From: Branchiostoma floridae
Lineage: Eukaryota; Chordata; Leptocardii; Amphioxiformes; Branchiostomatidae
Assembly (NCBI RefSeq): GCF_000003815.2
Contig: NC_049990.1
Location: forward strand, 8,480,449-8,544,448
Length of the DNA: 64,000 bases
Direction: 5' to 3'
The position numbers and the translations under genes are program-made. Shown one piece after another: positions 39,801-42,800 of this stretch (the stretch's first letter is position 1; the number at the start of each line of letters is the position of its first letter). The notes under the pieces are model-generated. The model did no database searches. It worked only from the letters and a program-made list of their open reading frames with translations, and was not told the origin of the DNA.

Positions 39801-42800
39801 ACGCCACGTTTCTGTGGTTCTAACCCCTCTTTACATCGGCTTCACATGTGTGTTCTTTGTCCACGGTGTTTTGCGTATCCCGTGTCATTCATGTGTACGG
39901 TATTAATGCCTGTCCGACGTCTCGCAAGACATTGCTGTGTTTCCATTGTGAAACCTATCTCTGTGATCTCTGTTCCATCTATTCTCGCTCCTGCAAAATT
40001 AACATTGATGTAATAAGCTTTGTTAAAAAAAGGAAGGATGCCCCCTTTATTCCCCTCTCAATGGCACATCTCTTGGAGGCACGCAGAAGGTTTGCTCTTT
40101 TTCATTTCCTCCTACTAATTAGAATTCGGACAGTTTTCTTGAAAGAAAAAAAGAAAGAAAGAAAAACCTCTCTGCTATTGGAAAAAAATCTCTTGCTGAG
40201 GTGGTCTAAATGGACAGGTTTCACTGTATTGCTACGAATCGTAGAGACACTGAAATGCGGCGTTTGCTTCGTTGAAGGTCAAGTCCCAGCCATGGGAAGG
40301 CGACCAAGAAGTACCGTCCAACAAAGATGTCACGTCCCTAGATTGGAACGTGAGTACCTCGTGTCCACGTTTTACCCGTAACTCGATCCATCGATCGACA
40401 TGACCTGGCATGACCTCTTCTTTTTCGATGTGGCGGTGGCCGGACGAGTGCTCGGCTGCCGAATGTGTCAAGATTCTGGTCACTGGAAATGGTGACCTTG
40501 ACAAAGGGGTGACCTTGAATAAAGGAGAGGAGTTTCCTTTTATAAAAAGGATTTCTGTTCCAGATGAGGACTTTCGCCGCTGTCTGAGATGGTTTATTCT
40601 ATCCACTACAGAAAGAAAATTAAAATACATGTACAACAACTGTCTAATGTGCATGTTTTAAACAGTGGCAGGTTTGAAAGGACTGACTGTTTCATGATGT
40701 TAAAGTAGAGGTGTTCAGAATTCCTTGATACTGGCATCTCCGTATTGGCATAAAGAAAACATTTGCTACAAAGATTTTTGTATTTCAAACATGGTGATAG
40801 GTTTCTGAGGAATACTGATGCCCTTTATTCTAAGCCCTGAAAGAACAATATTTTCAATGCCAGTTTTAATGGTACCTTTTCACAAATCTCTTTTGGGAAG
40901 AGATACTTGGGTGCAATAAAGCCAAAGTATTTAGGAAAGGAAACAATTTAAAATTCCCTGTTGTTTCGACACTGCAGAACTAGCTTTCTCTTGAAGTCCA
41001 GATTCGAAATATTTAGGTACATGAGATAGTATTAAAAAAGACAAAATATTTTCACGTCTTCCTTTTTTCTTCCATACAAGATCAGAAAGTTTTTCCCAGG
41101 AAAAGACCCTAACTTGCCTAAACCTACTTCTCAGTAATGTGTGTCGTTTTGTGTACGTGTCTGTGTCGTCTTTGTTTCTAGTTTCTGTTTTTCACGTTTT
41201 TCGAGTATCCCTTCCATGAAAACATGGTTTTGTTTTTTTCACAGTCAGAAGGAACACTCCTAGCAACAGGGTCGTACGATGGATTCGCAAGAATTTGGTC
41301 CACAGACGGTAAGTATTACTTCATGTTACCATTGTCTATGATTGCTGGTTTTCATTAAGGCATTGTGAAATGGTTTTCCAAGTATGAATGATACGTTTTA
41401 GATGTTGTCAAAGGTTTCTGAAGGATTGTTTTATGCTCAAATATATTTTCGTCAAATTTGTATTAAGGATCATTAAGTAAGCCCTGTACCGTGTACACAT
41501 TTATGGTTTGGGACTGGTGTGTATGGAAAGGACTGATAAGGAAAGTTCTGGTATTGCTGTTTCAGAGCTGAATTACTGCAGTATTTTTTGTAAATGAGGT
41601 TTTTTGTTGTTTGGCAGGTCGGTTGGTCACGACGTTAGGCCAGCACAAAGGTCCCATATTTGCGCTGAAGTGGAATAAAAAAGGGAATTACCTACTTAGC
41701 GCAGGTGTAGATAAGGTAAGCTGTACTATCTTCATTTTATATTGTGTGTAATTTACTCATTCTCCTGTGCAGAGCCAAACCTGCATTCTATCCATAAGAA
41801 GTTCCTTGGTTTTGGTTCTCCGTTATAGGCCTTAACTTTTCACTGTTGAATGCGTAGCCAGTAAACAACTCTCAGCAAATCAGAGAGCCATAAATGTTGT
41901 CTTTAGGTAAACCTGATAGGCTCATAGTTATTCATAACCAACACACCCAAAAAACACAGAATATTTGATAAGTGCAGTGGGTTGTTTAAGTTTAACCTGC
42001 TCGAGGTGTGGGTCTCCTCAAACACAGGACCTCAATTTAACGTCCTAACCAAATCTAGGAACTCTGAGGATACTGATTGTCTTGTTTCTCCTGTAGACCA
42101 CAATTATCTGGGACGCTCACTCAGGGGAAGCGAAGCAGCAGTTCCCGTTCCACTCTGCGCCCGCGCTGGACGTGGATTGGCAGAGCAACACGAGTTTCGC
42201 GTCGTGCTCCACGGACATGTGCATCCATGTCTGCAAACTCGGCATGGACAAACCCATCAAGACATTCCAGGGGCATTCCGTAAGTCGGGCTGATTTTGAA
42301 CATTTGTTTTACACAAGTAGTAAACAGCCTTTAGGTGTTGCCAGGGCTGTCTCCAGGACCTGTCCCTCCGTCCTGGGATGGAAATTTATTTGTCAGGACG
42401 GACAGAAATTTTCATGCTTCCATCCCAAAAATCTGAACTTCAGTACATACATTGATGGAAATATGTTTTCGTAAGCTTAAGATAATAGGTTTTACAACGA
42501 AAATCAGCAACATTGGCTCCCAAACAATGAGCGAGATGGAAAGAAATTCAAAACTTGAGACAGCCCTGGGTGTAGCAGTCACCATTTGTATACAGCAGGT
42601 ACAAGCCATATAAGCTGTCTAAGACACACTGTAAGGTTTGATCCACTCACACTGGGATGGACCCCTGCAGGAAATGTACCTATATCAGTCATTCTACATT
42701 GAGCACATGAAGCCTACACCATGTAAAACAACCTCATTTAACACAATCCCCTTCTATGCAATTACAAATACACTTAGCCATGCCCCTCAAATTTCAATCT

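Follow-up and report, generated by a model that had tools for sequence, protein, structure and literature searches.

A silently diverged copy of the end of exon 5 in an amphioxus TBL1 gene and its possible use as an added exon

In Branchiostoma floridae, intron 5 of a TBL1/TBL1XR1 relative contains a second version of the final 18 codons of exon 5 that has diverged almost exclusively at silent sites, retains the exon 5 donor and lies in an open frame. The block appears to be, or to have been until recently, under coding constraint, and this conclusion is well supported by codon comparison and simulation. Based on these observations, we suggest, at roughly even odds, that exon 5 was duplicated in tandem long ago and that the block, as the surviving 3' part of the duplicate, may act as a phase 0-0 cassette in some transcripts. 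From its splice sites and frame, present splicing of the block seems likely, with positions 40278-40349 (72 nt) as the most likely form of the exon.

TBL1 is a very conserved subunit serving as a corepressor and Wnt co-factor. Within the window, i.e. the whole 64,000-nt stretch of DNA that was analysed, 11 exon peptides of the host gene were placed between 33896 and 46760. Their joined product matched residues 102-473 of the 473-residue TBL1XR1 chain 4lg9 (E 1.2e-231), and the peptide of exons 5-6 matched the TBL1XR1 chains 5naf and 4lg9. Exons are numbered as in the first-pass annotation, and the features discussed here are collected in Table 1.

Table 1. Features of the TBL1 gene bearing on the intron 5 block (positions are those of the window)
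Feature	Position	Strand	Remarks
Exon 5 start copies with acceptor, intron 4	39182-39218; 39333-39385		151-base step
TBL1 exon 5	39484..39622	+	139 nt; first base closes the exon 4 codon; exits in phase 0
Preferred predicted acceptor AG	40276..40277	+	Exon start 40278, phase 0; predicted use
Leader codons VKSQPW of the proposed cassette	40278..40295	+	No clear exon 5 counterpart
Acceptor AG of the first-pass annotation (TCCCAG)	40288..40289	+	Exon start 40290, phase 0; score 2.0, 80th percentile
Block: diverged copy of the exon 5 end (18 codons)	40296..40349	+	Codon comparison, neutral simulations
Donor GTGAGT	40350..40355	+	Same as exon 5 donor
TBL1 exon 6	41245..41308	+	In frame when joined 3' of the block
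Exon 10 end copy, intron 10	44266-44295		10 codons compared

A tblastn search of the window with exon 5 as the query recovered the block with an E value of 8.5e-8. Compared codon by codon with 39569-39622, it has 6 identical codons, 11 synonymous differences and a single replacement (Gly to Asp), exactly as counted in the first-pass annotation, so that 17 of the 18 residues are shared with the neighbouring exon. The 13 base differences are distributed over codon positions 1, 2 and 3 as 0, 1 and 12. The shared donor was likewise verified, as both exon 5 and the block end in AAC followed by GTGAGT; the donor 9-mers are the same, and both score 8.9 (the exon 5 site is part of the scoring matrix, and scores 6.1 when left out). 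The start of the block, on the other hand, had been set at 40290 and has to be moved to 40296, where the similarity actually begins, since the two preceding codons (CCA TGG at 40290-40295) are unlike those of exon 5 (ATA CGG).

Both edges of the similarity are abrupt. The 5' edge coincides with codon 29 of exon 5, and past the GTGAGT only 8 of the next 30 nt agree. Local alignment of the 3' flanks was no better than that of 300 single-base shuffles (p=0.54). No homology beyond chance was found between the 5' half of exon 5 and 40150-40295 (p=0.22), and when this lost half was sought elsewhere in intron 5, both parts of the intron gave shuffle-like alignments (p 0.60 and 0.44). The 100 bases 5' of 40278 also lack homology to those 5' of exon 5 (p=0.93). 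As both flanks are chance-like while the codons and donor are alike, it seems that the intronic surroundings were scrambled and the codons and donor were kept. Further 3' in intron 5, an 85-codon stop-free stretch was noticed (40404-40658); its DNA matched only itself and it is probably due to chance.

Copies of the exon 5 end were simulated under neutrality and with half-relaxed constraint. The simulations are rough (ancestral codons were drawn at random, and transitions were given a weight of 2); exon 5 itself was kept constrained, its silent changes being allowed for. Not one of 18,000 neutral copies, at six divergences, reached 11 or more synonymous codons with no more than one replacement, and the same result (0/18,000) was obtained under half-relaxed constraint. 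The best fraction reached, 0.26, came from a highly diverged copy barred from any replacement. When the number of differences was fixed at 12-14 in order to remove detection bias, none of 3,880 neutral copies had one replaced codon or fewer. Exon 5 is so rich in G+C at the third positions of its end (17/18 in 39569-39622, against 10/18 in the block and 0.36 to 0.78 in whole exons of the gene) that the silent change may partly have occurred in exon 5 itself. With silent rates in exon 5 of two, five and ten times the neutral rate, and again 12-14 differences, at most one replaced codon was seen in 0/4,061, 7/3,814 and 30/3,371 copies, respectively; it thus takes an excess of about ten-fold for neutral copies to reach one per cent. 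By a looser measure, i.e. at most one difference at codon positions 1-2, the numbers of runs were 0, 1, 9 and 51 for one-, two-, five- and ten-fold rates. A Fisher test on synonymous versus replacement sites was set aside because the synonymous sites are saturated.

A search of the window with the 11 exon peptides (tblastn, E up to 5) revealed three intronic copies of exon 5 pieces, as well as a copy of the end of exon 10 in intron 10 (E 1.8); the remaining weak matches were discounted as being due to chance or to further WD40 repeats in the TBL1 gene. The intron 10 copy was accepted, without a shuffle control, because its DNA and part of the intron that follows align, and it probably arose by tandem duplication. 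Of its 10 codons, 6 are identical to those of exon 10, 3 are replaced and 1 differs silently, and where exon 10 has the donor GTAAGG the copy reads GTACAT. This copy looks neutral and may illustrate what a dead copy would look like, as one short case. A neutral duplicate of an exon edge should carry replacements as unconstrained sequence does; judged by the simulations and by the contrast with the intron 10 copy, the block does not. The first-pass claim that selection acts on the encoded protein is therefore well supported, as present or recent constraint, while the persistence of the block is something we infer from one genome.

The other two exon 5 copies lie in intron 4 and repeat the start of the exon together with its acceptor. 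Their exon parts are identical to exon 5 at 36/37 and 51/53 positions, whereas the intron parts of the three units (both copies and exon 5) agree at just 51/104, 71/105 and 76/104, which suggests that the exon parts are being homogenised, perhaps by gene conversion. At the codon level, one copy differs from exon 5 by 1 synonymous change over 12 codons and the other by 2 replacements over 17, and both reading frames soon reach stops. As a cause of the pattern in the block itself, gene conversion was rejected by reasoning that it would level silent sites as well.

Splice sites were scored with a matrix built from the 10 acceptors and 9 donors of the gene itself, and 574 AGs in 9,872 intron bases served as the background for acceptors. 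The AG before 40278 scores 7.0, at the 95th percentile of the intronic AGs, and outscores 2 of the 10 real acceptors (left-one-out scores from -3.0 to 13.5); with a matrix from 10 sites, it is only a moderate acceptor. A third in-frame AG, with an exon start at 40284, scores 3.3 (86th percentile of the 574). An exon of 60 nt and 20 residues from the acceptor at 40289, as first proposed, is in phase 0 and could be formed, but the start at 40278, giving 72 nt and 24 residues, is the better one.

The open frame across the block begins at 40254. Joining exon 4 to the block leads to a stop whichever of the three AGs is used, whereas the order exon 5, block, exon 6, exon 7 stays open from all three and makes the block a symmetric, phase 0-0 unit. 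In both length (60-72 nt versus 139 nt) and phase, the block is unsuited to substitute for exon 5, and these joins fit an added cassette rather than a swap. The mutually exclusive use considered in the first-pass annotation is thus out of frame for the block as it stands, and survives only in the form of a dead relic or by way of weak internal donors (see below).

These features may be accounted for as follows. Exon 5 would have been duplicated in tandem long ago, and the 3' part of the copy would have been retained in intron 5. The 139 nt of exon 5 are not divisible by three, so that a complete duplicate would have been usable only in its place; with the loss of the 5' part and the uptake of a new phase-0 acceptor, the copy would have turned from a substitute into an addition, presumably spliced as a cassette between exons 5 and 6 in part of the transcripts. 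The predicted longer protein would carry 24 additional residues after DWN, at a point which we take, by our assignment of blades and strands, to be just past the first strand of a blade, so that the next WD40 blade would have its first strand in duplicate. Either copy of the strand could then occupy its place, with the other expelled as a loop. A strand place that can be held by either copy would explain why the 18 codons were kept while the leader was not. On the other hand, a doubled strand could unfold the propeller, which argues against the cassette. It is doubtful, although conceivable, that the product is a regulated isoform in which the propeller closes with either copy, so that a loop of ~24 residues projects from one or the other face; a nuclear corepressor subunit would then contain a strand-register switch controlled by splicing. 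β-Catenin binds the top face of TBLR1 (PMC4754046).

The main rival to a spliced cassette is a recently dead relic. The block would then derive from a full second exon 5, once a substitute and long constrained at the protein level, which recently lost its 5' part and has decayed little since. The pattern of differences attests past constraint and not present use, the length of exon 5 would have confined a complete copy to substitution, and homology upstream of codon 29 is undetectable, all of which agree with such a history. However, the loss has to be recent, and the intact donor, the absence of a stop, the three in-frame AGs and the moderately good acceptor are all still present. We regard this reading as rather unlikely, if clearly the best of the alternatives.

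The cassette reading also has to be weighed against routes in which the block stands in for the last part of exon 5, either through an internal donor (e.g. after 39547) or by joining a copy of the exon's 5' half in intron 4. Three of the six exon 5 GTs that were tried (39547, 39583 and 39601) give stop-free joins, as do the intron 4 copies from 39221 and 39387, and the copy at 39182 together with the block presumably has a WD-repeat-like spacing. These routes are improbable, as the donors they depend on are weak: 39547, 39583, 39601 and 39221 score -0.2, 1.4, 0.5 and 2.5, and 39387 falls under the listing limit of -3, against the 8.9 (6.1 left out) of exon 5's own donor.

Slightly less probable still is a recent paste of a short piece whose constrained source has since disappeared or escaped sampling, e.g. 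a paralogue that was lost or an allele of another lineage. The abrupt end of the similarity on both sides of the block would suit such an event. When the whole genome was searched at the protein level with exons 5-6, at least nine matches were obtained at E up to 10, four of which lie in the TBL1 gene (exon 5, exon 6, the block and one intron 4 copy), while five weak ones elsewhere (32-46% identity, E 0.22 to 9.2) are probably other WD40 genes. No second TBL1 locus or donor paralogue was among the matches listed, which speaks against the paste, and since the sole off-gene matches listed are weak, a living TBL1 paralogue was ruled out as a recent source. Used as DNA queries against the genome, with simple repeats and very common words skipped, the block and the two halves of intron 5 returned self-matches only; this again disfavours a pasted piece, and an origin from a repeat or transposon was rejected on the same result. 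A structured RNA was also dismissed, as no Rfam family reached the gathering score on either strand of 33000-47500. Very improbable, finally, is a neutral duplicate in which the look of constraint is accidental and owed in part to rapid silent change in exon 5. The G+C-rich third positions (17/18) would speak for this, but it is opposed by the 0/18,000 simulations, by the mere 30/3,371 at a ten-fold exon rate and by the kept donor.

The proposed change from a substitute to an added exon resembles a path described for COE/EBF proteins. The authors propose that, in vertebrates, the duplicated exon of helix H2d-H2a was at first a tandem copy able only to substitute by its phase, and was then fitted beside its parent via a new splice site, a donor, which restored phase 0 (PMC2394523). 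They stated in 2008 that, to their knowledge, this path had not been invoked for other proteins (PMC2394523). The two cases differ in that the COE/EBF exon gained a new donor and its inclusion is called mandatory, whereas the TBL1 block would have gained a new acceptor, is a truncated copy and is known from the genome sequence alone. Tandem duplicated exon substitutions, or mutually exclusive exons, as described in two further papers, share with the block the homology of neighbouring exons and the maintenance of protein similarity, but they replace each other, while the block is out of frame as a substitute (PMC9741552, PMC5740500). In the latter paper, length differences of up to 60 nt were tolerated in the search (PMC5740500); the block (60-72 nt) and exon 5 (139 nt) are 67-79 nt apart, beyond this limit.

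In the literature on TBL1 and amphioxus splicing, with subscription papers mostly outside its scope, such a TBL1 isoform was not found, nor did any TBL1 title occur among the matches listed from the similarly delimited literature on mutually exclusive exons and exon duplication in amphioxus. The block is a case of a kind already known, in an unusual form. If spliced, it would provide an isoform, novel to the literature searched, of this very conserved subunit, and a further case in which a duplicated exon was made an addition from a substitute by a new splice site. Divergence at silent sites within one genome can thus flag a hidden exon.
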